Shown: positions 2,738 through 59,745 of the stretch, one piece after another
Layout: each line of letters opens with the position of its first letter
Position numbering within the stretch: position 1 is the first letter of the stretch
Source: a virus
Virus record (IMG/VR): IMGVR_UViG_3300042544_001590
Span: 143,490-207,489 of that record
Strand: one strand, 5' to 3'
DNA length: 64,000 nt
The notes under the pieces: model-generated
What the model saw: the letters and a program-made list of their open reading frames with translations, nothing else
The model's database searches: none
Told to the model about the DNA's origin: nothing
Program-made: the position numbers and the translations under genes

Positions 2738-4387
2738 TCACTCATTCAAAAACAACCAATGAGCATAATTTATGGGTTTTTTAAATCCACGATCTCTATA
2801 CTCTCCGATGTTGTTGAGATGTCTGTCTTTATTGACCTGTTCGGTCATGTAACCCATGACACCTTCTTCATCTTCGGGATTATCTTTTTTGAGTTTGATT
2901 AGATATTTGGATATGGCATCAATTTTTTCATAATCTGGATCATCATCATCCATCATTTCTCTTAATTTTTCTTCAATTTCTGGTGCCGACAATCCAGCAA
3001 CTTCACCTTCAATATTAATCTTCGGTTTCTTTACACCCTTTTCCTTTAATTTTTTTTCAGCTTCCCATTTCTTACCTCGTTTTTCATATTCTCCTTGACG
3101 AATCATTCTCGCGTCTTCTCTAGATTGAGCTTTTTCAGCCTTTTCATCATCTCTTGAAGATTTACTCACTATTGATAGTTTAAGTTTCGATAGAATATTT
3201 CTCCAGTTTGATAATATTCCACTTTCTTCGTCAGTTATAATCCCCTCATTAACCAAATCATCCAGAAGACCATCATCCAAAGTATCATATACAGATTGAT
3301 ATCTGTCTTTCTTGAGTAGCATTTCCGCTTCGTTTTGGTATGAAGAAGTCTTTAAATTTCTTTTATAATATTTTAAAACCACTCCACCCGCATTACCCAT
3401 AACATTAATTATAAATTTTTGAATTTTTTCATCGGTGATGTCTTGATTAGATTCAATACGAGCCTCAATATTTCTCAGTACTTCATTAAATGTTGCTTGG
3501 GGGGTATTCTTCAACAAGTCTCTTTCATATTTGATGTTTTCTTGAGTGTCTAAACCCACACCTCTCATCTCTTCATCATTATCTTTATTCAAATTTGCAA
3601 TTTGTTGTTTATATGAAATCAACTGTTTTAGAGTATCCCTAAATATAGTAAGGGGAGTGTTGTTATCAACATCGAGTTCTGGTTGAACGAAATTTGTATC
3701 GGCATGATAGATAGACGAAGTTATACCTTTTGGTAATTTTTTAGATTTTTTAAGTTTTTGAATTATTGAACGGGCTTTATTTTGAATAATATAAGCCTCT
3801 TCCATACTCATACCAAACATTTCTTCTTTTTTTGCTGTTGTTCCATATGCGAAATTGGAGCTTCCTCTTTTTTGGAAGTGCTTATCAGCATAATCATAAA
3901 TATTTTTTTGATTTAATAATTTTTTTGCAAATTGCTGGGACAACGCAATTTCTGGATACGCTTTCACTATCAATCTCAACATAAATTCTTGTTGTAATTG
4001 TGTATTATCTGCATTTTTTGGAGCAAATTTAGCATATTCGGGTGTATATGCTCTTGTTTTTCTACTTCCTATTCTTTCTTCCGGCGTGAGTGGTCTGATT
4101 GCTAAATCTTGAACACTTTGGTCAAACCCAACACTTTTATTAATTCCAATCTTTGCAAGATTCTCCGCAGATAAAAAATTGAATAAAGATTTGGTCACGT
4201 ATTCCAACCTTCTATGTCCGAGAGTTGGGCTAGGTGGTGCTTTTGGGTGTCCTTTCATTATTCCCTGCACCTGTAAATATAAATTTTCAAAGTCTGGAAA
4301 TTCATTTCTCCAAAAGGGACTAAATCGAGCCATTTCGTTCAATACCTGCACTTTTTCCACTAGATAATCAAAGCCGTAATTTCTCAT
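2738..4387 (-). CDS. Probable head-internal protein with capsid-targeting-like N-terminus
   Basis: 549 residues, no recognised enzyme motif. The N-terminus (MRNYGFDYLVEKVQVLNEMA) resembles the shared peptide found on about a dozen proteins here, with a possible prohead-protease site LNE. The rest is charged, helical and rich in Lys, Asn and Glu, with a segment around 395-470 of almost uninterrupted charged coil (DDEKAEKAQSREDARM). It ends in a hydrophobic YAHWLFLNE. Base composition is more AT-rich in the middle than at the ends. The late box CTAAATA lies 5 nt before the ATG, so it is expressed late, probably as a virion component. Confidence 0.7.
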   Translation of the reverse strand: MRNYGFDYLVEKVQVLNEMARFSPFWRNEFPDFENLYLQVQGIMKGHPKAPPSPTLGHRRLEYVTKSLFNFLSAENLAKIGINKSVGFDQSVQDLAIRPLTPEERIGSRKTRAYTPEYAKFAPKNADNTQLQQEFMLRLIVKAYPEIALSQQFAKKLLNQKNIYDYADKHFQKRGSSNFAYGTTAKKEEMFGMSMEEAYIIQNKARSIIQKLKKSKKLPKGITSSIYHADTNFVQPELDVDNNTPLTIFRDTLKQLISYKQQIANLNKDNDEEMRGVGLDTQENIKYERDLLKNTPQATFNEVLRNIEARIESNQDITDEKIQKFIINVMGNAGGVVLKYYKRNLKTSSYQNEAEMLLKKDRYQSVYDTLDDGLLDDLVNEGIITDEESGILSNWRNILSKLKLSIVSKSSRDDEKAEKAQSREDARMIRQGEYEKRGKKWEAEKKLKEKGVKKPKINIEGEVAGLSAPEIEEKLREMMDDDDPDYEKIDAISKYLIKLKKDNPEDEEGVMGYMTEQVNKDRHLNNIGEYRDRGFKKPINYAHWLFLNE

Positions 4388-4392
4388 ACTGT

Positions 4393-4415
4393 TATTTAGT
4401 CATAATAATTAAATA
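4393..4415. promoter_or_regulatory. Divergent pair of late promoters
   Basis: On the minus strand CTAAATA (4393-4399) ends 5 nt before the ATG at 4387. On the plus strand TTAAATA (4409-4415) ends 5 nt before the ATG at 4421. Both match the late box used throughout the window, in a 33-bp intergenic region that leaves no room for a Shine-Dalgarno site. Confidence 0.75.
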
Positions 4416-4420
4416 ATGTT

Positions 4421-5152
4421 ATGATTTCATTCTCACAATACTTTCTAATCAAAGAAGCGTTTGATACTGTCACCGAATTCATGTTAAATCCTGAAAATTC
4501 AGATAAGGATTATGATGAACTTATTGCAGAATTCGAGGCATCAGGTGGGGAGGTCATCGGTTCCGGTTCGTTTGGTATCGTGTATTCCCATCCTAAGTGG
4601 CCGTATGTTCTAAAGGTTTTCTCTTGGGATGATCCTTACTTAAAATTCGCTAGATATGCTCACGATAATCCTCATCCATCTTTTCCCAAATTCTTCGGCA
4701 AACCACAAAGAGTAGTCCCCCAATTCACACGATACAAGGACGAAGCAAAACAATATTTGGCTAGAATTGAAAGGCTTAATCCGACTCCTGTTAATGTTTT
4801 GGGACTAATAGATAATAATCTGATGCTTTATTTTCATTTGAAAGAAAATCCTAAATTAATACAAGATAGGACACAATTCATGAAATTGTCTTCCAAAGTT
4901 AAATCTTTACCAAAAGCTGTTTATAATCTGTTGGAAGGATGGTATCTGCTCCGCAGAGATTTACCTGATCTGAATCCCGATTTACACGGAGATAATGTGA
5001 TGATGCGAGATGATGGTCAATATGTTTGGGTTGATCCGGTCTGGACAGGAGATGAGAATATTGATAATCCTCTGACTGCCGCTATGACATCCAAGGATTA
5101 CGAACCTAGTAACATGCTTAAAGGAGGGAGAACAAAGTTGACTTCCCGATAA
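4421..5152 (+). CDS. Protein-kinase-like protein with capsid-targeting-like N-terminus
   Basis: 243 residues. The N-terminus (MISFSQYFLIKEAF) resembles the capsid-targeting peptide of the other late proteins, with IKE as a possible protease site. The body has kinase features in order: a glycine loop GSGSFGIV (47-54), a candidate ATP-binding lysine in VLKVF (about 65), a catalytic loop PDLHGDNVMM (about 186-195) with Asp and Asn placed as in eukaryotic-like and choline/HipA-type kinases, and VDPV (about 204-207) where DFG normally sits. It carries a late promoter. I infer a kinase packaged into the head and injected to phosphorylate host proteins at infection. The substrate is unknown. Confidence 0.7.
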   Translation: MISFSQYFLIKEAFDTVTEFMLNPENSDKDYDELIAEFEASGGEVIGSGSFGIVYSHPKWPYVLKVFSWDDPYLKFARYAHDNPHPSFPKFFGKPQRVVPQFTRYKDEAKQYLARIERLNPTPVNVLGLIDNNLMLYFHLKENPKLIQDRTQFMKLSSKVKSLPKAVYNLLEGWYLLRRDLPDLNPDLHGDNVMMRDDGQYVWVDPVWTGDENIDNPLTAAMTSKDYEPSNMLKGGRTKLTSR

Positions 5153-5171: not shown

Positions 5172-5852
5172 ATGGAAAATACTAACGTCTCGTCCAACAT
5201 CGCCATTTTTACGGCAACAAAAGGTAATAACGGACAATTCCCATTAGCCCAAACAGCGTTGAAATTGAATCTGGATGAATTTATTCACCCAAAATTCAAC
5301 AATCGCCAAGGATTACCCAAGGTTTACAACGAATTCCTAGACTTGGCTATTAGGGAGAAATTTGAATACGTCATGTTCATCCACGATGATGTCCATCTGG
5401 AACACGATCCCCGCCCAAAGCTGGAGAAGCTGTTTCAGGAATACGATATCGTAGGTGTGGCAGGATGTTCCAAAGCAGAAATAGAGTCCCCCGCACTTTG
5501 GCACATCATGGGTGGGGGGTTTGGAGGTGGCTTTCTACATGGTGCGGTAGCTCACGGCAACGCTGATAGGAAGCACATGACGAGCTTTGGTGTATATCCC
5601 CATCGCGTGGTGATGATTGATGGTGTTTTCATGGCATTTAATCGGAAAGCGATTGAAACGGTGAGATTTGACGAGGCTTGCCCATCAAGCTTTCATTTTT
5701 ACGATCTTTGCATGTGTGCTTCAGCTTTAGAAAGAGGCTTGAAAATTGGGGTGGGGGATGTTATGATAACTCACGAGTCACCGGGATTGCGAGAATTTAC
5801 AGAGGATTGGAAAGCTGGGGAGTCTTACTACCTAAACAAATATGGAAAATAA
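5172..5852 (+). CDS. StrF-type family 2 glycosyltransferase-like protein
   Basis: 226 residues. Key features are YVMFIHDDVHLEHDP (about 61-75), where the DDV replaces the DXD metal site of GT-A enzymes, IVGVAGCSKAEIESPALWH, then MIDGVFMAFNRKA and a late HFYDLCMCASALERGL. This is the pattern of the StrF-like glycosyltransferase-2 domain. It would transfer a sugar from a nucleotide donor. The acceptor (host surface, DNA or protein) is not visible. Unlike the late glycan genes in this window it has an early-type promoter, so an early role such as altering the host envelope is possible. It overlaps the next gene by 11 nt. Confidence 0.75.
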   Translation: MENTNVSSNIAIFTATKGNNGQFPLAQTALKLNLDEFIHPKFNNRQGLPKVYNEFLDLAIREKFEYVMFIHDDVHLEHDPRPKLEKLFQEYDIVGVAGCSKAEIESPALWHIMGGGFGGGFLHGAVAHGNADRKHMTSFGVYPHRVVMIDGVFMAFNRKAIETVRFDEACPSSFHFYDLCMCASALERGLKIGVGDVMITHESPGLREFTEDWKAGESYYLNKYGK

Positions 5853-7764: not shown

Positions 7765-8262
7765 ATGAATAATTATTTCAAAGAATTGGGTTTAATTTAT
7801 GAAAATATTTTATTAGAGGCAAATTTATCAAATAAAAATCTTTTTTATGGCTTAAAAAGTATGCTGGATGGTGGAGATGATTTTGTATTGTTGACTGATA
7901 GAAACATCGACACGGACAACCAACAAACTATGAGTTGTCAATTTATTTATAAAGGAACTAGACATATTAAAGTTTTCACAGGAGCATTTTTTGAAAATAA
8001 AAATTATAATAATGTTTCACATATTACTGTTACTATATTTGAAGTAACCCCAGAGGGTAAAACAATATCTAAATTGGATACTAATGTATTCTATAATAAA
8101 GGTGGACACCTTGATCTTTCACACGATCCAGTAATATCTACGGTTGAGAATTTTGTAAAATATGTAAAATCAGTATTGGATAGGTCTGATAGGGATGGTG
8201 ATGATGAAATATTACCACCGAAATCTCCAAGCCCGATGAGTAAAAAATTGTTATCAGTTTGA
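7765..8262 (+). CDS. Late protein with capsid-targeting-like N-terminus
   Basis: 165 residues. The N-terminus MNNYFKELGLIYENILLEA carries the shared head-targeting pattern and a good prohead-protease-like site (LLE before A). The body is beta-rich (HIKVFTGAFFENKNYNNVSH) and ends in a Pro/Ser-rich tail. It is clearly more AT-rich than the flanking helicase and phosphoesterase genes, which suggests separate acquisition. Its own late promoter lies 5 nt upstream. Biochemical role unknown. I infer a small internal head protein. Confidence 0.65.
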   Translation: MNNYFKELGLIYENILLEANLSNKNLFYGLKSMLDGGDDFVLLTDRNIDTDNQQTMSCQFIYKGTRHIKVFTGAFFENKNYNNVSHITVTIFEVTPEGKTISKLDTNVFYNKGGHLDLSHDPVISTVENFVKYVKSVLDRSDRDGDDEILPPKSPSPMSKKLLSV

Positions 8263-14190: not shown

Positions 14191-14790
14191 ATGCGTCCGT
14201 TTTACGATTTTTATCTAGAGAAATTTTCTGATTTGGGTAAATTATCCCCCGAACAATTGAGAAAAGGTCAGAGACTTGATCCAAACAACCCCGATAACTT
14301 CCAACAGGTGAGCGGGAGGGTGTTTTCTCAAGCCCTTACCAACATCACAAAGAATGATGAATTTCGCCGAACGGTAAATCCAAAGTTTTTCAAGAATATC
14401 AAGAACAATCTCAGTGTTTATAAAGTTGAAGAATATCAGCGCATGAAATGTTTCCTTGGAAAGAACAATTCCAGTGGTTTTGCCATCAAGGATGGGGATG
14501 AATTGGTGTCAGTATTCTCTTCTCAAGAATCTTCTGGTAATGCGCTGGTTCAGGAAGCGATTCGGCAAGGTGCCACACGATTGGATTGTTTTGCCACACA
14601 AGATGAAAACGGTAATATCAAGGATGAGGGTTTATACAGGCTTTATAGTAGGAATGGGTTTGTGATTGACAAAACGCTGAACATGGACGGAGAATATCCT
14701 GTCAAGAATGGGATATCCTACTTCGTGGACGAAAATGGAAATGTTGATCCCACCAATCCTACCGTGGTGATCTTCATGGTTAAAAACTAG
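14191..14790 (+). CDS. GNAT-like acetyltransferase with capsid-targeting-like N-terminus
   Basis: 199 residues. MRPFYDFYLEKFSD resembles the shared N-terminal peptide. The C-terminal two-thirds look like a GNAT fold: SGFAIKDGDELVSVFSSQES (strands 2-4 with a bulge), GNALVQEAIRQGATRLDCFA (acetyl-CoA-binding helix and strand), then LYRLYSRNGFVIDKT, where 'LY...GF' is the usual end of the domain. It has its own late promoter inside an early block. I infer an injected acetyltransferase that modifies a host target. The family is moderately sure, the substrate unknown. Confidence 0.65.
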   Translation: MRPFYDFYLEKFSDLGKLSPEQLRKGQRLDPNNPDNFQQVSGRVFSQALTNITKNDEFRRTVNPKFFKNIKNNLSVYKVEEYQRMKCFLGKNNSSGFAIKDGDELVSVFSSQESSGNALVQEAIRQGATRLDCFATQDENGNIKDEGLYRLYSRNGFVIDKTLNMDGEYPVKNGISYFVDENGNVDPTNPTVVIFMVKN

Positions 14791-15102: not shown

Positions 15103-15910
15103 TTTAAACATACGGGAGCTTTACCAAAAGATAATTGAGGAGAGGGCGGCAGCTAGAGGCGTGATCTTGATGGAAAATGTGAAGATTCCTTCCAATAATT
15201 CCAGTCCCGATCAGGTCAATTTTGATGGAAAGTCATATTCTTATGAATTGGGGGACGCTTTTTCCCTCATAGGAGACACACTTTACCATACGGAGAACAC
15301 CCACCCATACATTTTCAATTCACTTTTAAAAATTAAAAACGATCCAAAGGATTTTAAGAGGATATTAAAATCGTATTATGTGGAAATATGTGGAAAATTC
15401 AACAAATCCGATTTGGAATACTTTTTCAATAACCAGAAAGCGGAAAGCATGGGAGATACCAGAATCAACACTCAATCTGGAAGAATCTGGAAAGATATCA
15501 CCTCAACATCCGCTAAAAAGGATGTGTCGGTGGTGGTGTTTTGGTGTAGGGAGAAAGATATCCAACCGGACACGCTTAAAAAAATCAAGAAGTGTTTTAC
15601 TAAAAATGATATTTTTTGGGCTGCAACCGATTCCAAGAATTTCAACCATTTTGGGGATTCTTATCAAGACACTCCATCTGGAGAAATCAAGGAATTGAAA
15701 AGTAAAATATATCCAGAGCTTTCTCACGAAGATATTGTGGATATCCTGATGAGAGCGCATTCAAATTTCAAGATATCTCCCTTTGAGAAGAAGGTGGTGT
15801 GGGAATTCCGAGGAATCAACCCAGAAGATTTGAAAGTTATTGATGGAGGATACCCATCGGTGGCGGAATTCAGGGATAAACAAAAATTTAGCGAAAATTA
15901 TGAAAAATAA
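15092..15910 (+). CDS. Hypothetical protein with capsid-targeting-like N-terminus
   Basis: 272 residues from the ATG at 15092, chosen because a GAGGAGG-like Shine-Dalgarno sequence precedes it at about 15079-15084. The N-terminus MKDDLNIRELYQKIIEERAA resembles the shared head-targeting peptide, with IIE as a possible protease site. Later segments include FNFNGKSYSYELGDAFSL-like strands and INTQSGRIWKDITSTSAKKD followed by VSVVVFWCREKDI, which suggests a globular alpha/beta domain. No late box precedes it, so it may be read from the 14179 or 14780 elements. Confidence 0.6.
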   Translation: MKDDLNIRELYQKIIEERAAARGVILMENVKIPSNNSSPDQVNFDGKSYSYELGDAFSLIGDTLYHTENTHPYIFNSLLKIKNDPKDFKRILKSYYVEICGKFNKSDLEYFFNNQKAESMGDTRINTQSGRIWKDITSTSAKKDVSVVVFWCREKDIQPDTLKKIKKCFTKNDIFWAATDSKNFNHFGDSYQDTPSGEIKELKSKIYPELSHEDIVDILMRAHSNFKISPFEKKVVWEFRGINPEDLKVIDGGYPSVAEFRDKQKFSENYEK

Positions 15911-16559
15911 ATTTGATGAATTGTATGAACAGGTGATTATTGAAAGTGGTCTTTCAAGAGTATGGAGAAAGATTCAAAATCATTCTTCTGGCACCATCAC
16001 GGCTTTTAGGGGTGATGTCCCATATCAGCAGAATATTAGAAATAATAAAAAGATACTTGCTTATCTACAATCTAAAGGATATTCGGTGACATCTATTATG
16101 GGGACATACATTGAAAATTTTAGAGATGAAGAAAAAAAGGAGGAGATTCACGCTAGAAATGCTGGAGGTGATCCATATGATCCCGAAGAAAGACATGTTC
16201 AAGAAAGATCATTTTTAGTAGTAAATGATAGGGTGGAAGGTGATGATGGTGGTAAATTGGCGCACGATCTTTTTAAATTGGGGGTAGCTTTTGATCAGGA
16301 TTCGGTTATGATTATTCCCGTTGGTGGTAATAACGCATATCTGTGGGGAACATCCAAAAGAGAAGAATCGTATCCCGGTTACAATATCAAAGCTCCAGTT
16401 GGTAGTGGTAAATATGGAAAAACATCAGGAGCATTTTTATCTAAGATTAAGGGGCGAGAATTCGCGTTTGAGGCTATCAAATCACCACAAACCATAAATG
16501 GCAAGCGTGGTCAAATGATTTCGTTGAAAGAAGTTAAGAAACAACTCAATGAAATATAA
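15900..16559 (+). CDS. Conserved phage domain with capsid-targeting-like N-terminus
   Basis: 219 residues from the ATG at 15900. The first 17 residues (MKNKFDELYEQVIIESG) are the clearest example of the shared peptide, with IIE before S as a prohead-protease-like site. The rest matches in outline an uncharacterised family widespread in phages and bacteria (DUF3293-like, by memory): GTITAFRGD, NNKKILAYLQSKGYSVTSIM, GTYIENF, RSFLVVND, FDQDSVMIIPVGG, AYLWGTSK. Other phage members lack the N-terminal tag, which suggests a tagged module. Function unknown. Confidence 0.7.
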   Translation: MKNKFDELYEQVIIESGLSRVWRKIQNHSSGTITAFRGDVPYQQNIRNNKKILAYLQSKGYSVTSIMGTYIENFRDEEKKEEIHARNAGGDPYDPEERHVQERSFLVVNDRVEGDDGGKLAHDLFKLGVAFDQDSVMIIPVGGNNAYLWGTSKREESYPGYNIKAPVGSGKYGKTSGAFLSKIKGREFAFEAIKSPQTINGKRGQMISLKEVKKQLNEI

Positions 16560-37138: not shown

Positions 37139-38419
37139 ATGGAATTTGATAAGCTGTATCGTGAATTGATGTTGGAGTTCTCGGAAGGAGCGATCCGTAA
37201 CATTGTGAAGAAATTCCAAAACGATGCCACGGAACAAGAAATCCGTAGAGAGGTTCAGGATTTTGAAAAGTATAAGAACGCTTTACAAAAGAAAGACCCT
37301 TTCCAATATAAATCGTGGATAGAGTTCACGGAAGCGATCCATGCTGCAAAGGGTAAGGCTGAATTTAAAAGGAAAAAAGCACCAACCCAAGATGTTGTTG
37401 CCAATCAGGATGATATCATAGCCGATGATGAGAACGTGACCATCTATCGGGGAGATTCCCAAGACAAGTGCGTGTTATATGGAAAGGGTTATTCTTTCTG
37501 TATCTCAAGACAGGTTGGAGGTAATATGTTCTCTAACTATCGTTTGGGTAAAGAATCTACATTCTATTTCATATATTTCAAGAAGAAACCGAAGAGTGCG
37601 GTTGACCATATTATGGTGTTGGATCATACCAAGCATGGGTATGAATGGACTTTTGCCGATAATGATACTAAAAAGGTGAATGGTGGGTGGGATGAGGTGG
37701 TGGGTAAATATCCAGAATTAAAGAAATATGAAAAATTATTAGTTAATAAAAAGTTGGATGATGAAGAGAGTGAATTTATAAAAGTGTTAAAGAATTTTTC
37801 TAAAAATCCAAGATTAGAAAATTTTAATAAATTCTCTTATGAACAAAAAGCACAAGCTCTTAAAAGTGTTGTTGATTTAAGTGATCAAATATGGAACGCT
37901 TTAGATTCTACTTTGAGAAATGAATTTTTGAGCATAGGTCCAAATTTAACAAAACATCAAGCATTTAATCTTAAACCTAATGAAATTGAACGGTATAAAA
38001 AAACAAGAAATCTTTCCAGACAACATTTAATTGATGATTATAAATATAAGGAAAATATATTTGATTTTTCAGATGATGAAAGATTGGCATTGGAGTATAT
38101 GGAAAAAGTTGGAAGTTCAAAATTTTTCAAAGATGATAGATTATCTAATAAAAAATTAAAGTTTGAAACATCTAATGATTATGAAAGGTCTATTTATGAC
38201 TTGGTTTTTGATGAAAACGGTGCATTAGTGACATATCAAAATATTGTAAGAGATGTTTTTGGGGGGAATCCAGATGATGTTTTATACATAAAGTATGATA
38301 CGAATGGAAATATTATTAATATTGAATCAAGCTATGATGATATTGAAGATACTTCAAATTATAATGAATCTATCCATTTTGATAAATATTATCAAAAGAT
38401 AATGTCAAGTCTCTTTTAA
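37139..38419 (+). CDS. Chimeric injected-protein candidate with capsid-targeting-like N-terminus
   Basis: 426 residues from ATG 37139. MEFDKLYRELMLEFSEG is the shared peptide, with MLE as a weaker protease-like site. Residues about 80-205 carry a domain I have seen repeated in phage proteins: VTIYRGDSQDKCVLYGKGYS, FCISRQVGGNMFSNYRLG, TFYFIYFKKKPKSAVDHIMV and EWTFADNDTKKVNGGWDEVV. From about 37730 the DNA turns sharply AT-rich and the protein becomes Lys/Asn/Asp-rich, as if a second module had been joined. The polyvalent phage effectors of Iyer and Aravind have this multi-domain style. Catalytic function not identified. Confidence 0.65.
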   Translation: MEFDKLYRELMLEFSEGAIRNIVKKFQNDATEQEIRREVQDFEKYKNALQKKDPFQYKSWIEFTEAIHAAKGKAEFKRKKAPTQDVVANQDDIIADDENVTIYRGDSQDKCVLYGKGYSFCISRQVGGNMFSNYRLGKESTFYFIYFKKKPKSAVDHIMVLDHTKHGYEWTFADNDTKKVNGGWDEVVGKYPELKKYEKLLVNKKLDDEESEFIKVLKNFSKNPRLENFNKFSYEQKAQALKSVVDLSDQIWNALDSTLRNEFLSIGPNLTKHQAFNLKPNEIERYKKTRNLSRQHLIDDYKYKENIFDFSDDERLALEYMEKVGSSKFFKDDRLSNKKLKFETSNDYERSIYDLVFDENGALVTYQNIVRDVFGGNPDDVLYIKYDTNGNIINIESSYDDIEDTSNYNESIHFDKYYQKIMSSLF

Positions 38420-40745: not shown

Positions 40746-40768
40746 TATTTAGAACAAATGACTAAATA
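40746..40768. promoter_or_regulatory. Divergent pair of late promoters
   Basis: Minus strand CTAAATA (40746-40752), 5 nt before the ATG at 40740. Plus strand CTAAATA (40762-40768), then ATCCT and the ATG at 40774. Confidence 0.78.
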
Positions 40769-40773
40769 ATCCT

Positions 40774-41541
40774 ATGGGCAAGAAATTTGATGCTATCTAT
40801 GAAGCTGTTGTGAGTCGTTCCGAAGTGGGGGGTTATCTTCCCGGCGATATCATAAAATTTAGGGATGGATATAAAAACACGGAAACTTACAAGTATATGC
40901 CATTCACTCTCAGGAAAGAAGTGGATGAATTGGCGACTTGCGGATTGAACATCAAAGTCGTTCAGGTTGGAGACAAACAATCAGGATATTCCATTGGAAA
41001 TCAATTCAAACCAGCATCCCAGATCGTTCTCACCATTGCTGCTGATCATGGTGGTGGTAGAACTTATGGTAGAGTGGTTGTCTGTCCCGCCATGGTTGAT
41101 ATGGTGGATGTGAGCGCAGGAGTTCCGGTTCCCGATCAATTCAAGCGCAAGGATACTGTCATCATCAAGCCCAAACCCTTAAAAATTGATCCAAAGATCA
41201 TCACCAATGTCACTGACAAGGGAAATGGTAAGAATACCCCCACCGATCTGAAATTGGCGGGAGAATCCAAGGCTTGGGAATCCACCAAGGAATTGGCTGA
41301 TTTGTATATGGAATCTTTGGGGGAGGTTCCCCTGAGAAATATGCCTCCAGAAAAATCTTTAGGGGAGGTTCCTCGGCGTGATCCGAACACACAACCCCCA
41401 ACAAAAAACAGATTGAATTTGCTTTATGATAGATTACCAGAACTTAAAAAAGCTATAGAAGATGTGAGGTATGGTTCTTTTAAAGAGTTCTATAACAAAA
41501 TTTCAGAGTTTAAGGATTTTCTTGATAACGAGTTTGTTTAA
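40774..41541 (+). CDS. Late protein with capsid-targeting-like N-terminus
   Basis: 255 residues. MGKKFDAIYEAVVSRSEVGG begins like the shared peptide but lacks a clear I/L-x-E site nearby. GGYLPGDIIKFRDGYKNTET and VQVGDKQSGYSIGNQFKPAS form a beta-rich domain that I associate with T4-like virion proteins. There is a short internal repeat (ESLGEVPLRN then KSLGEVPRRD, about 189-209). After it the DNA is more AT-rich and ends in a second FDxxY-like helix (FKEFYNKISEFKDFLDNEF). Probable virion component. Confidence 0.65.
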   Translation: MGKKFDAIYEAVVSRSEVGGYLPGDIIKFRDGYKNTETYKYMPFTLRKEVDELATCGLNIKVVQVGDKQSGYSIGNQFKPASQIVLTIAADHGGGRTYGRVVVCPAMVDMVDVSAGVPVPDQFKRKDTVIIKPKPLKIDPKIITNVTDKGNGKNTPTDLKLAGESKAWESTKELADLYMESLGEVPLRNMPPEKSLGEVPRRDPNTQPPTKNRLNLLYDRLPELKKAIEDVRYGSFKEFYNKISEFKDFLDNEFV

Positions 41542-45125: not shown

Positions 45126-46229
45126 ATGCCAAAGATTTCCCAATTAACATCTGCAACATTACCTATTGTTGGTAATGAGGTGGCTATCATCAATCAAAAT
45201 GGAACCACTTATTCAAGTGCTTTAAGTAATTTTATTGGGGGTGGATCGAACGTGTCATCCTTATCTTCAAATTGGCAGAACACTTACACCACATTTTCCT
45301 CAAATTCTGCCAATTATGCAAAGGTTAATGTCAATAATAATTTTTCATCTACCCAAACGTTCACCACAGGTTCAATAAATGTCGGAGGATTTCCTTTATC
45401 TGCGACAGTGAGTAATAGTTTGTTTGGTGGTAATCTCGCAGGTTTCGGTGCTACGTGTGCATGTTTCTCCAATTTCTTTGGTTATAACGCAGGTAACGGT
45501 GCCACATGCGCATCCAATTCCAATTTCTTTGGTCAAGGCGCGGGTTACAATACCACAAACGCATATAGCTCCAATTTCTTTGGTTCAAACGCAGGTTTCG
45601 GTGCCACAAACGCATCCAATTCCAATTTCTTTGGTTCAAACACAGGTTTCGGTGCCACAAGCGCATGTAATTCCAATTTCCTTGGTTCAAACGCAGGTTA
45701 CGGTGCCACAAACGCATCCAATTCCAATTTCCTTGGTAGATACTCAGGTAACGGTGCCACAAACGCATCCAATTCCAATTTCCTTGGTTCAAACGCAGGT
45801 TTCGATGCCACAAACGCATCCAACTCCAATTTCCTTGGTAGATACGCAGGTAACGGTGCCACAAACGCATCCAACTCCAATTTCCTTGGTAGATACGCAG
45901 GTTACTATGCCACATACGCATCATTCTCCAATTTCCTTGGTCAAGGCGCAGGTAACGGTGCCACAAACGCATGTCACTCCATATTCATTGGTTCAAACGC
46001 AGGTAACGGTGCCACAAACGCATGTCACTCCATATTCATTGGTTATAACGCAGGTTTCGGTGCCTCTCTGTCAGCTTCAATCGCCCTTGGCTCTTGTGCT
46101 ATCCCCACATCACACAATCAATTAGTGTTGGGGTCGTCAGCATACCCACTATCAACTGTTAATAGCGGCAACTGTTTAGTTGTAAACATAAATGGAACTA
46201 TGAAGAAAATAGCGTTGCTTTCCGTTTAA
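45126..46229 (+). CDS. Repeat-rich fibre-like late protein
   Basis: 367 residues. The N-terminal 100 (QLTSATLPIVGNEVAIINQN) resemble fibre attachment regions. Residues about 102-305 are twelve tandem 17-residue units of the type GSNAGFGATNASNSNFL, most of which begin Gly and end Asn-Phe-Leu/Phe, as expected of a beta-solenoid with one turn per unit. The C-terminal LVLGSSAYPLSTVNSGN and KIALLSV form a small terminal domain. Probably a fibre or capsid-decoration protein. It is followed by late glycosyltransferase and sulfotransferase genes. Confidence 0.65.
   Translation: MPKISQLTSATLPIVGNEVAIINQNGTTYSSALSNFIGGGSNVSSLSSNWQNTYTTFSSNSANYAKVNVNNNFSSTQTFTTGSINVGGFPLSATVSNSLFGGNLAGFGATCACFSNFFGYNAGNGATCASNSNFFGQGAGYNTTNAYSSNFFGSNAGFGATNASNSNFFGSNTGFGATSACNSNFLGSNAGYGATNASNSNFLGRYSGNGATNASNSNFLGSNAGFDATNASNSNFLGRYAGNGATNASNSNFLGRYAGYYATYASFSNFLGQGAGNGATNACHSIFIGSNAGNGATNACHSIFIGYNAGFGASLSASIALGSCAIPTSHNQLVLGSSAYPLSTVNSGNCLVVNINGTMKKIALLSV
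45429..46040 (+). repeat. Twelve 51-bp tandem repeats
   Basis: Units of 17 codons starting GGT, with a more degenerate thirteenth after 46040. Neighbouring units differ mainly at the second to sixth codons (Ser-Asn-Ala, Arg-Tyr-Ala, Gln-Gly-Ala). Long identical stretches such as GCCACAAACGCATCCAA are shared, so the array probably expands and contracts by recombination. Confidence 0.9.
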
Positions 46230-49393: not shown

Positions 49394-50191
49394 ATGAAGT
49401 CCTTTCTGGAATTTTTTGAAGAGCGTAACGGTGTTCTATTGGAATACCGTCACAGGGATGGTTTTGGGGGTATTAAACAATCCCTCCATGCCAACAACAA
49501 AAAAGGGGGCAACATCACCCGTGATCCTCTGACACGCAAGATACCATGGAACAAAGGACCGTATAAGAAAATCAGAACAGCGGGAGAGATTCTGATCGGA
49601 GATGATCTGTTGAAAGAATTGGGTTCTATGGGAGGCGTGGAGTTCAAGGATGGTAAGGAGATCAAAAGAAAAAATAGTAATCAAATTTTAAAATTGTTCA
49701 CAAATCTTCATGGACAACAATGTGGAAAAATAGTGGAGGTAAAAAACCGAAACGCTTTTACTGAAAAAACAGATTATTATGGTAATTGTGTTGATCTGTG
49801 TAATCAATTTACTGTCGATACTGATGAAGATGATTATGACGGTGATTATGAAAATTATTATGAAGATGATGGTAGCGGCGCAGCAGAATGGATGATCAAC
49901 GTTTTATCAAATGATAATAATGTTATTAGGTTAAACAAAGAAACCTTTGATCAGTATGTAGACATTTCAGGTATCCCACAAGACAGAATTGAAAATTTAT
50001 CAAGTGATGAGTATTATTATATTATAGATGGTAGAGGACACCCTAACGGATATGTTAATTTTGTTTTATATGGTGAGAATAGGAATGGTGATGATATACA
50101 TTATTTTTTCAATGTATCACCTGATCCTAATTTAGAAAATAAAAAATTGCCGAAATTGCCAAATGGATATGGGGCAGGTTCTAATATGTGA
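49394..50191 (+). CDS. Late protein with capsid-targeting-like N-terminus
   Basis: 265 residues from ATG 49394. MKSFLEFFEERNGVLLEYRH is very close in style to the T4 capsid-targeting peptide (MKTYQEFIAEA), with LLE as a possible protease site. A basic, Gly-rich middle (GGNITRDPLTRKIPWNKGPY) is followed from about 49670 by AT-rich DNA encoding an acidic/Asn/Tyr-rich region (DTDEDDYDGDYENYYEDDG) and a beta-rich end. The composition break suggests module fusion. No catalytic motif recognised. Confidence 0.65.
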   Translation: MKSFLEFFEERNGVLLEYRHRDGFGGIKQSLHANNKKGGNITRDPLTRKIPWNKGPYKKIRTAGEILIGDDLLKELGSMGGVEFKDGKEIKRKNSNQILKLFTNLHGQQCGKIVEVKNRNAFTEKTDYYGNCVDLCNQFTVDTDEDDYDGDYENYYEDDGSGAAEWMINVLSNDNNVIRLNKETFDQYVDISGIPQDRIENLSSDEYYYIIDGRGHPNGYVNFVLYGENRNGDDIHYFFNVSPDPNLENKKLPKLPNGYGAGSNM

Positions 50192-54842: not shown

Positions 54843-54849
54843 CTAAATA
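54843..54849 (+). promoter_or_regulatory. Late promoter box for tail sheath
   Basis: CTAAATA, then GTAAT, then the ATG at 54855. Confidence 0.75.
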
Positions 54850-54854
54850 GTAAT

Positions 54855-57257
54855 ATGGCAACACGCACAATAAATTCGGCTGGGGTAGAGATATTTGAGA
54901 GAGATTTAAGTCTAGTCGCACAGACGAACGTAGGCACGAATGTCTTTGTAGCTGGATATACCCCCCAAGGTTATTCCGACGAGGTTTTGAAAATCACCAC
55001 CAGAGATGAACTGGAATCAATCTACGGAACCCCAACCAATAGCGCAGAACGCTATTTCTATTACACTGTCCGCGAACTACTCAACTCTCCTGCAAACATC
55101 TACACTTTCCGCCTTCCATATGGATCGGGAACTGGAGATGGATTTGGAACACAACATTCCGCTCTTGTATATCCTGTTGTTGCCGCTACTCCAACTGATG
55201 TAACAACAACCAGAAGCCTTGATCTTTCTGCTGCAACCTATTTCCTTGGAAAACCCTATCAGATTACCCTATCTGAAACGGAATTTGCCCAAGCCATGGA
55301 AGGAACCCTCTTCGATTGGTCTTCCACTGCTGGAAGTAGAGCGGAACTTATTTCTGGATTTTCCACTGACCCTCTTAGTGCGCTAACCTTAAAACAACGT
55401 ATGGGCAATGCTGGTGTCATTGTCTTTGATAAAGCCCAAACCACGATCAATAGCCAATTTGAAGGTTATTATGTCGGTATCGCAGATAACGTCAATCTCA
55501 ATCCTGCATCCAATTTTGATGCAATCACCCGCGCCTATACCACAAGCCTTACTGCTGGGGTGATTTCGGATTATACCCAGATTCCAAACGGAACTCTCCA
55601 ATTCAATCTCTCAGCTACTGCTGGAGGTGCCACTGGTAGTATCTCCCAAGTCATGGAGAACCTTACCGATTATAACATCGATGGTAGGGAAGATGATGAC
55701 CTTCTGAATGTTGGTGTGTTTAAGCTCCGCAAGAGTGTTTATGCAACCGAAGCGTTTAAACTGGATTATGTGCTTGATGACCGTATCGTGGGTTCCATTG
55801 ATACCTTCAGAACTCAACTCAATCCAAATGGTGGACCATCGGTTCCATTCTTCCTTGAGACTCAGGATACCAATTCCCGCAACGTGGAAATCATGGTCAA
55901 CCCATTCATCTCCAACAAATTCACACAATCCTCGCTGGATTCTTCGGGTAATCCTCTCAAGAAAATCCGTGTGGTGACTGAGAGCTTGCTTAATACTGAA
56001 TATGCATCCATTTCTGCTGCATTAGGTATTACAACCACTACCTCTACCGCGCCCGCTCTTAGTGCTAACTTAACGGTAGCCAATACATATGCTCTTTCTG
56101 GTCTTGATGCAAGCGTGGGAGTCGCAAATGCCCTGTATCCTCTTGGTGTTTACAACCCTGTCAAGATTACCCAAAAGATCATCGGCAATGTTCCAACCAA
56201 GATCAACCGCGCTCTGGAATCCATCAAGAATGATGAAATCTATGACATTGATGTGGTTGTCGAAGGTGGTCTGGGAACGATCTTTACGATGATGTCTGCT
56301 GCGGGAACTGATTACTATGATGACACCCTCTACAATACCGCTCTGAAGACCAAGGTGGATACCCTGAGAACTTCGGGTGACATTTCCAATGATGCGGTTG
56401 CAACCGATCTCCGTGCCAATTACAGCGCGATCTTCAACCAATTTGAGAATTTCTGTAACCTTCCAAGCAATACTGGTGGTCGTGGAGACTGTGTGTTCAT
56501 TGCTGATCCAATCCGCCACATCCTTGTTACGGGTAGAAACACCAAGATTCTCTCCGATAGAAACAAAAATTTCCAAAAGGATGTTTATTGGGCAATGCGT
56601 CACCAATTTGAATTGGAAAACACTTCCTATGCTGCCACCTATGGTAACTGGATTCTGGGTTATGATGATTTCAGCGGTGAAAAGGTTTGGCTTCCATTCT
56701 CTGGATACCAAGCTGCTATCATGGCCCGTAGCGATGCTGCGGAATTCCCATGGTCTGCTCCTGCCGGATTTACCCGTGGTCTGGTGACTAATGCTCTGGA
56801 TATTGCAATCAATCCGAATCAGAAACAGCGTGATGAGTTCTACAAGATCAACATCAACCCTGTCATGTTCTCTCCCGCCCAAGGTGTGGTTGTGTTTGGT
56901 CAGAAAACTATGAGCCGCAAACCAAGTGCATTTGATCGTATCAATGTCCGTAGGCTCTTCCTCGCTCTGGAAAGACCTACCAAGAAAGCTGCTCAATTCT
57001 TCGTGTTTGAACCCAACAACGAATTCACCCGCACTCGCTTGGTGAACGTTCTCACTCCGATCTTCGAATTTGCGAAACAGAACGGCGGTTGCTACGATTA
57101 TCTGATCGTTTGTGACGAACGGAATAATACTCCCCAAGTCATTGATACCAATGAGTTGAAAGTTGACATTCTTATCAAACCAACGAGAACCGCCGAGTTT
57201 ATTTTAATAACTTTTACGGCTACCCGTAGTGATGCCAACTTTGAAGAGTTGATTTAA
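54855..57257 (+). CDS. 18: Tail sheath protein (gp18-like)
   Basis: 800 residues, longer than T4 gp18 (659). The contractile sheath subunit. The N-terminus SAGVEIFERDLSLVAQTNVG, then NVFVAGYTPQGYSDEVLKIT, is typical, as is the C-terminal conserved block AALERP-type (RLFLALERPTKKAAQFFVF, then EPNNEFTRTRLVNVLTPIFE and DYLIVCDERNNTPQVI). The extra length falls in the surface domains near 130-430. GC-richer codon use than the unknown genes nearby, fitting high expression. A terminator follows. Confidence 0.94.
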   Translation: MATRTINSAGVEIFERDLSLVAQTNVGTNVFVAGYTPQGYSDEVLKITTRDELESIYGTPTNSAERYFYYTVRELLNSPANIYTFRLPYGSGTGDGFGTQHSALVYPVVAATPTDVTTTRSLDLSAATYFLGKPYQITLSETEFAQAMEGTLFDWSSTAGSRAELISGFSTDPLSALTLKQRMGNAGVIVFDKAQTTINSQFEGYYVGIADNVNLNPASNFDAITRAYTTSLTAGVISDYTQIPNGTLQFNLSATAGGATGSISQVMENLTDYNIDGREDDDLLNVGVFKLRKSVYATEAFKLDYVLDDRIVGSIDTFRTQLNPNGGPSVPFFLETQDTNSRNVEIMVNPFISNKFTQSSLDSSGNPLKKIRVVTESLLNTEYASISAALGITTTTSTAPALSANLTVANTYALSGLDASVGVANALYPLGVYNPVKITQKIIGNVPTKINRALESIKNDEIYDIDVVVEGGLGTIFTMMSAAGTDYYDDTLYNTALKTKVDTLRTSGDISNDAVATDLRANYSAIFNQFENFCNLPSNTGGRGDCVFIADPIRHILVTGRNTKILSDRNKNFQKDVYWAMRHQFELENTSYAATYGNWILGYDDFSGEKVWLPFSGYQAAIMARSDAAEFPWSAPAGFTRGLVTNALDIAINPNQKQRDEFYKININPVMFSPAQGVVVFGQKTMSRKPSAFDRINVRRLFLALERPTKKAAQFFVFEPNNEFTRTRLVNVLTPIFEFAKQNGGCYDYLIVCDERNNTPQVIDTNELKVDILIKPTRTAEFILITFTATRSDANFEELI

Positions 57258-59163: not shown

Positions 59164-59170
59164 CTAAATA
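59164..59170 (+). promoter_or_regulatory. Late promoter box for tail tube
   Basis: CTAAATA, then ATAAC, then the ATG at 59176. Confidence 0.75.
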
Positions 59171-59175
59171 ATAAC

Positions 59176-59745
59176 ATGGCGACCACAATTGAAAACTTTT
59201 TTAATCAGGCTTCTCAAAAGCAATTTGCAAGGGACTTCCTATTCCGTGTTAAACAAATCAGTGTTACTGGTCTTTCCTTAAATGGGGAGACTGATCTGAT
59301 TTATGCAAGAACCGCAACTTTTCCGGGACGAAACATCCAGAATAAGCAAGTCAACTTCAGTGGTCAAACATTCAACCTACCGGGAAAATCTGAATATCCC
59401 GGAGCAGAAGCATGGTCTATTGAATTCTATGTTGATCAAGACCTTGATATTCGTTCCAAATTGGAAGCTGCATCGAGAGTTTTATTCGATAATGAAACGA
59501 CCACTGGTAACATTTGTATGCCGGGATATGAATCCGTGATTACTCTTGATGTTCTACAAATCCCATGTCAACGTGGATCGAATGTTACATCTGGGGGGGA
59601 ACTTCAAGTTGGTAAAACAATTGAACTGATTGGTGCTTCCCTTAGAGACATTGGTGAAATTTCTTATGAGATTGCTGACGGAACGGGAGAAGTTAAAACC
59701 TTCAATGCGACTTTTGCATATCATTTCTACAAGAAATTTACGTGA
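59176..59745 (+). CDS. 19: Tail tube protein (gp19-like)
   Basis: 189 residues (T4 gp19 163). FARDFLFRVKQISVTGLSLN, LIYARTATFPGRNIQNKQVN and WSIEFYVDQDLDIRSKLEAA are typical of gp19 tubes, as is the end TFNATFAYHFYKKFT. Stacked rings of this protein form the inner tail tube. Late promoter directly upstream. Separated from the sheath gene by an endonuclease gene. Confidence 0.88.
   Translation: MATTIENFFNQASQKQFARDFLFRVKQISVTGLSLNGETDLIYARTATFPGRNIQNKQVNFSGQTFNLPGKSEYPGAEAWSIEFYVDQDLDIRSKLEAASRVLFDNETTTGNICMPGYESVITLDVLQIPCQRGSNVTSGGELQVGKTIELIGASLRDIGEISYEIADGTGEVKTFNATFAYHFYKKFT

Follow-up and report, generated by a model that had tools for sequence, protein, structure and literature searches.

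In the final 64 kb of a 207,489-base virus record, a gene was found that encodes a protein kinase of the T7 gp0.7 type, preceded by a late-type promoter and starting with an N-terminus that resembles those of the T4 internal proteins. We consider it likely that this kinase is virion cargo, which would be made late, targeted to the head, cut, injected with the DNA and then phosphorylate host proteins as T7 gp0.7 does. The 64,000-nucleotide stretch that was analysed is called the window throughout, and coordinates refer to it. The virus is a T4-type phage. Its T4-type genes in the window include those for UvsX, a DnaB-like helicase, a gp32-like protein, clamp, clamp loader, terminase, sheath, tube and baseplate, and a gp21-type prohead protease (PF03420, E=5.7e-27) and gp23 (PF07068, E=5.6e-84) are encoded elsewhere in the record. 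The first 25 kb of the window had no close match among phage genomes.

The kinase gene and its product

The kinase ORF lies inside the replication region, with a divergent 549-aa gene on one side and a glycosyltransferase-like gene on the other, and its features are the following:

2738..4387, minus strand: divergent late gene, 549 aa, with tag-like N-terminus MRNYGFDYLVEKVQVLNEM
4393..4398, minus strand: late-promoter element TAAATA of the divergent gene
4410..4415, plus strand: late-promoter element TAAATA, 11 nt upstream of the kinase ATG
4421..5152, plus strand: kinase ORF, 243 aa, T7 gp0.7-type kinase domain with N-terminal tag
4421..4456, plus strand: predicted capsid-targeting sequence MISFSQYFLIKE, aa 1-12, following the published rules for such sequences (PMC9026906)
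4448..4459, plus strand: predicted prohead-protease cut site I-K-E↓A (L/I-X-E), after aa 12 (PMC9026906)
4559..4582, plus strand: glycine-rich loop GSGSFGIV, aa 47-54
4607..4621, plus strand: VLKVF with the candidate ATP-binding Lys65, aa 63-67
4979..4996, plus strand: catalytic loop DLHGDN, aa 187-192, with catalytic D187 and N192
5030..5038, plus strand: VDP, the DFG equivalent, aa 204-206, with D205 (TDP, VDP or IDP in the family)
5172..5852, plus strand: glycosyltransferase-like gene, the fixed flank for comparing the slot in relatives

The product has a mass of 28.2 kDa and is mildly acidic (pI 5.8). Its gene neighbours are replication genes (uvsX and the dnaB-like helicase) and the head cluster lies elsewhere. 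A Mom-like DNA modification protein, encoded at 2082-2726 on the minus strand (PF25680, 7e-56; PHROG 1384, 1.7e-60), adjoins the slot and is another anti-restriction candidate.

A sequence-only reading had proposed a kinase-like effector at this ORF from a glycine loop, a VLK lysine, DLHGDN and VDP, and all four were recovered there. The match goes beyond chance, as the profile of the T7-type kinases, PHROG 15752, hits the window protein significantly (E=1.5e-7) and also its 81% (5e-8) and 53% (1.4e-10) identical relatives. Alignment to T7 gp0.7 with hhalign gave E=2.2e-6 over 163 columns, which include GxGxFxxxYSHP and DxHxxNxM...DPV. A 14-sequence alignment brings the glycine loop, Lys65, D187-L-H-x-x-N192 and D205-P206 into register, in the same order, with T7 gp0.7 and with kinases encoded by phages of Pseudomonas, Vibrio, Rhizobium, Klebsiella and Salmonella. 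Residues G47, G49, K65, D187, N192, D205 and P206 are invariant in homologues down to 37% identity, the catalytic Asp being D187 of D-L-H-x-x-N, while D191 varies. VDP in place of DFG is indeed present, but its standing as a peculiarity was not borne out: DP for DFG is the family norm, with TDP in T7, and a degenerate active site was accordingly rejected. Selection on the kinase is strongly purifying (pN 0.010 vs pS 0.31, against one close relative).

Other searches returned little. Pfam had no match for the 243-aa kinase, NCBIfam and PADLOC gave nothing useful and a PDB sequence search only weak kinase-like matches. Relatives were absent from the bacterial genomes searched, and IMG/VR scans seeded with a Pseudomonas phage kinase and with a kinase of Rhizobium phage RHph_I1_18 found nothing. 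The C-terminus lies only 37 residues past VDP, the alignment with T7 gp0.7 ends at T7 residue 218 of 359, and the C-terminal shutoff domain of T7 gp0.7 is not present in the ORF product. Judged by these comparisons, the ORF product is a homologue of the T7 gp0.7 kinase domain without being a gp0.7 orthologue.

Structure prediction, which had been suggested as a check, returned a kinase fold and not the structure lacking one that had been named as the outcome speaking against the idea. AlphaFold2 reached a pTM of 0.69 with core pLDDT mostly 70-94 and low confidence in residues 1-25 and 211-243, using an alignment to which the 53% and 37% relatives had been added, giving depth down to 37% identity; a shallow alignment of 13 near-identical sequences gave a poor model (pLDDT 43). 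Foldseek found protein kinases throughout among the PDB matches listed (best 5.8e-5) and phage kinases at the head of the BFVD matches (best 1.9e-9), with a VIA Z of up to 8.1, modest taken alone. Most of the normal C-lobe is missing, because the kinase domain ends soon after DP. The DLHxxN loop is similar to that of APH enzymes and NCBIfam gave a very weak APH(6) match (E=0.19), as a small-molecule kinase of the aminoglycoside-phosphotransferase type would lead one to expect, but the closest family is the protein kinase T7 gp0.7 and the PDB matches just mentioned point the same way. A pseudokinase fits poorly too, given that no variation occurs at the catalytic Lys, Asp, Asn and DP, and we regard either of these, packaged or not, as improbable.

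Late promoter and N-terminal tag

Promoters and tags were examined in 124 kb of the record, including three flanking 20 kb stretches. Among about 49 ORFs with TAAATA within 8-21 nt of the ATG, the offset is 11 in 36 and 12 in 6, and examples of the 11-12 nt spacing occur across the record (4410-4421, 40763-40774, 54844-54855 and 59165-59176 in the window). The pattern TAAATAANNNNATG occurs 29 times in the record vs once for the reversed pattern, and in five relatives the late-promoter pattern occurs 136-148 times per record vs 3 for the reversed one. TAAATA is assigned to the late-promoter class because terminase, sheath, tube, baseplate and head-cluster genes lie behind it. It is found ahead of the start of the kinase in 12 relatives or remnants, and all kinase relatives keep it at about the same position, so the late promoter of the sequence-only reading stands. 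In T4, the TATA box of late promoters sits roughly one helical turn upstream of the transcript start (PMC2988020), which together with the TAAATA spacing places the start of the transcript at or adjoining the kinase ATG. This phage group therefore probably makes leaderless late mRNAs; T4 genes under TATAAATA typically have 19-35 nt up to the ATG and a Shine-Dalgarno sequence. Where T7 gp0.7 is expressed early, the kinase has a late-type promoter directly at its start codon.

This firm late promoter would equally serve a kinase that works unpackaged in the infected cell, on phage structural or host proteins at assembly or lysis, its N-terminal likeness to a targeting sequence being incidental or meant for another interaction. 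We think this unlikely, partly because the N-terminus is conserved as a unit with a protease-type site at its end. The sequence of the kinase begins M-I-S-F-S-Q-Y-F-L-I-K-E↓A, against M-K-T-Y-Q-E-F-I-A-E↓A in T4 ipII/ipIII, and MISFSQYFLIKEA resembles MKTYQEFIAEA of these proteins. In T4, residues 4 and 7 govern capsid targeting, residues 8 and 10 govern processing, and the protease cuts following L/I-X-E (PMC9026906). The kinase has aromatics at these targeting positions (F4 and Y7), and the tags of relatives keep F4 and an aromatic at 7 and/or 8. I10-K11-E12↓A13, an L/I-X-E site, is invariant in 13 close homologues, and all tagged kinases keep E12 and a following A or S. The middle of the tag varies in relatives (SQYF, SEFY, SRYF, AKHY), with F4, E12 and A13 constant. 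A gp21-type protease and a gp23-type capsid protein are encoded by the same phage.

A first regular expression for such tags (two aromatics followed by [LIVM]xE) showed no significant enrichment in late genes (4/42 vs 3/123, p=0.07) and was afterwards split into an internal-protein-type and an FDxLY class. Of 165 genes, 3 show the internal-protein-type pattern (the kinase, the gene at 49394 and one at record position 126453), where internal windows predict 0.04, and 8 of the 42 late genes have an FDxLY-type tag, where 0.42 would be expected. Because sight of the data partly guided the design of both patterns, these enrichments are partly post hoc and their P-values optimistic. Other tagged or late genes in the window are:

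7765..8262, plus strand: late gene with FDxLY-class tag MNNYFKELGLIYENILLEA
15900..16559, plus strand: gene with tag-like N-terminus MKNKFDELYEQVIIES, S-adenosylmethionine-lyase family (PF23780, E=1.2e-9)
37139..38419, plus strand: late gene with tag MEFDKLYRELMLEF, occupying the second cargo slot next to baseplate gene 6
40774..41541, plus strand: late gene with tag MGKKFDAIYEAVVSRS
49394..50191, plus strand: gene with internal-protein-type N-terminus MKSFLEFFEERN behind the variant promoter TAAGTA

No late promoter of its own was found for the gene at 15900..16559; the SAM-lyase-type enzyme of T3 is an early anti-restriction gene. The late gene at 14191-14790, whose product starts with the tag-like MRPFYDFYLEKF, may encode an acetyltransferase domain (GNAT match weak at E=0.06; PHROG 2563, E=2e-11, function unassigned). 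The late gene at 45126-46229 encodes a strongly repetitive product with SNFFGxxAGxGATNA repeats, judging by which it is probably a tail-fibre or adhesin-like protein.

Exchange of tag and body among relatives

When IMG/VR relatives were aligned on the glycosyltransferase gene, the slot was occupied by the kinase in some genomes and by different late genes with a tag in others, and the divergent 549-aa gene stayed adjacent to it. Two relatives (L031 and L039) retain promoter, tag and some 31 codons of the kinase, after which a different late tagged gene follows. In a third, L055, the kinase body (53% identical) bears another tag, MEFDREYRLWIES; here and in L070 the tag reads MEFDREYRLW[IM]ES on the same kinase body, its W-I/M-E↓S only partly consistent with an L/I-X-E site. 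The kinase version of L070 is found at the second slot, beside baseplate gene 6, and is extended by a second FDREYRRLIEAY segment and one more domain. Promoter, tag and variable body behave as cassettes, like the leader-sharing internal protein genes of T4, in which the leader is the sole shared part and which are variable genes in hot spots (PMC12373910). The head-targeting-like N-terminus that had been noticed at the outset is supported by this exchange and by its resemblance to ipII/ipIII, and on both grounds we predict that it is a capsid-targeting sequence.

Both the swapping of one tag for another of its class on the same kinase body and the filling of the slot with other tagged late genes in relatives speak against the kinase working unpackaged. 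In favour of that alternative, the relative L094 has a late-promoted family kinase without a clear tag, and the large phages DLP6 and fENko-Kae01, which have an S77 protease, carry family kinases without an obvious tag, so that the link between tag and kinase is not a strict one. Conflict genes typically occupy slots that differ from one relative to another, and this variability, together with late expression and the exclusion activity of the 933W prophage kinase (PMC8008677), would suit a superinfection-exclusion or interphage-competition kinase that protects the infected cell or disables co-infecting phages. The 933W kinase is, however, expressed in lysogens and nothing in this phage suggests lysogeny, while the tag has no role in such a model, which we rate as very improbable.

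An independent case of a similar combination occurs in the cultured Rhizobium phage RHph_I1_18, which encodes an S77 prohead protease and two gp0.7-type kinases in a row. The second of these, QIG70573.1, starts with MKSFSEHIAES, the next gene starts with MISFKSHLNES, and three more N-termini of the MKSFSEHIAES type are present; the same DNA tag pattern applied to T4 retrieves ipII and ipIII. QIG70573.1 thus resembles the window kinase in family, in its targeting-like N-terminus and in the presence of an S77 prohead protease, but it differs in a core identity of only about 26%, a TTG start and a position in a series of three closely spaced genes that lacks the late promoter of the window phage.

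Against the cargo reading we count the location in the replication region, the acidic pI where the T4 internal proteins are basic, and the untagged kinases of the family. All in all, the kinase is probably carried in the particle and injected with the DNA. Following transcription from the T4-type late promoter, the 12-residue N-terminal helix would target the kinase to the capsid and pull it into the prohead core, where the gp21-type protease would cut after E12 (LIKE↓A) and leave a 26.7 kDa kinase amid the packaged DNA. Ejected with the DNA into the next host, it would phosphorylate host proteins (defence enzymes, RNA polymerase or RNases) as T7 gp0.7 does, ahead of any phage gene expression.

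That the phage group runs interchangeable head-cargo slots, as late and apparently leaderless cassettes with two tag classes and changing effectors, we hold to be an evenly balanced proposition, and the same holds for the make-up of these effectors, which would be gp0.7-type kinases and SAM-lyase-like, acetyltransferase-like and ADP-ribosyltransferase-like proteins. Long late genes in L070 (2513-4120) and L031 (3619-5355) have repeated FDxEY segments that link domains, one of them a kinase, and could possibly be cargo polyproteins cut inside the head. Another domain of these genes has YRG...ENEVLVF motifs resembling an ADP-ribosyltransferase; as a family call for the L070 C-terminus, L031 and the window gene at 37139 this was rejected, being a motif reading to which Pfam and PHROGs give no support. 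In L100 (823-1644) a different late gene encodes DMHDENVLM...VVDPV, a second kinase-like family, perhaps of the polyvalent-protein type.

Comparison with known systems

T7 gp0.7 and JSS1_004 (PHROG 15752) share with the window kinase the GxGxF loop, VxK, DxHxxNxM and TDP/VDP, and the window kinase and T7 gp0.7 presumably catalyse the same reaction. The T7-type kinases are synthesised in the cell from early genes and carry a transcription-shutoff domain at the C-terminus, whereas the window kinase has a late promoter and an N-terminal tag, lacks the shutoff region and belongs to a T4-like phage; the contrast with early gp0.7 drawn beforehand was apt and, with the homology to its kinase domain, stronger than could be seen from the sequence alone. 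The gp0.7-type family is described as almost exclusive to Autographiviridae and early, and its promiscuous kinases inactivate DndFGH and other defences (PMC12345140), a role that delivery with the DNA would suit.

Packaged phage kinases have so far been predicted only for a separate clade of polyvalent proteins (PMC5512222). These kinases (Iyer et al. 2017, PMC5512222) likewise are predicted to be packaged and injected and have lost much of the C-lobe, but they form a distinct clade of long multidomain proteins without a T4-type tag, mainly in (pro)phages of Bacteroidetes and Chlamydia-Verrucomicrobia (PMC5512222). In the literature searched, the coverage of which was incomplete, we found neither a stand-alone gp0.7-type kinase with a T4-type capsid tag nor a link of a phage protein kinase to an internal head protein.

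T4 IPI-IPIII share with the window kinase a short N-terminal tag with aromatics at 4 and 7 and an L/I-X-E site, a gp21-type protease in the genome and variable genes that have only the leader in common (PMC12373910, PMC9026906). They are small basic inhibitors of GmrSD enzymes and the window kinase is a predicted enzyme, with a tag that is two residues longer up to the cut site. T4 Alt, a packaged ADP-ribosyltransferase, is a host-modifying enzyme injected with the DNA, and the window kinase would work alike. It differs in chemistry and fold, having a predicted kinase fold and kinase motifs instead of the ART fold and R-S-E active site of the Alt family, and the Alt propeptide is shorter (7 residues). 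By analogy, the window kinase would thus work like Alt and the internal proteins, with a gp0.7-family catalytic domain.

As early gene products, gp0.7-type kinases have to be transcribed and translated before they can disable bacterial defence systems, of which they are known to hit several, Dnd and CRISPR type I-E included, while a capsid-borne kinase, if real, would act at time zero on defences that attack incoming DNA, and protein phosphorylation would join ADP-ribosylation and restriction inhibition among the T4-type virion-delivered chemistries. The cultured RHph_I1_18 makes the idea of a packaged kinase testable, and the tag and slot pattern offers a practical route to more injected effectors in uncultured T4-like phages. 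If the head-cargo slots are true, host-disarming enzymes that T7-like phages make early would come ready-made in the capsid.
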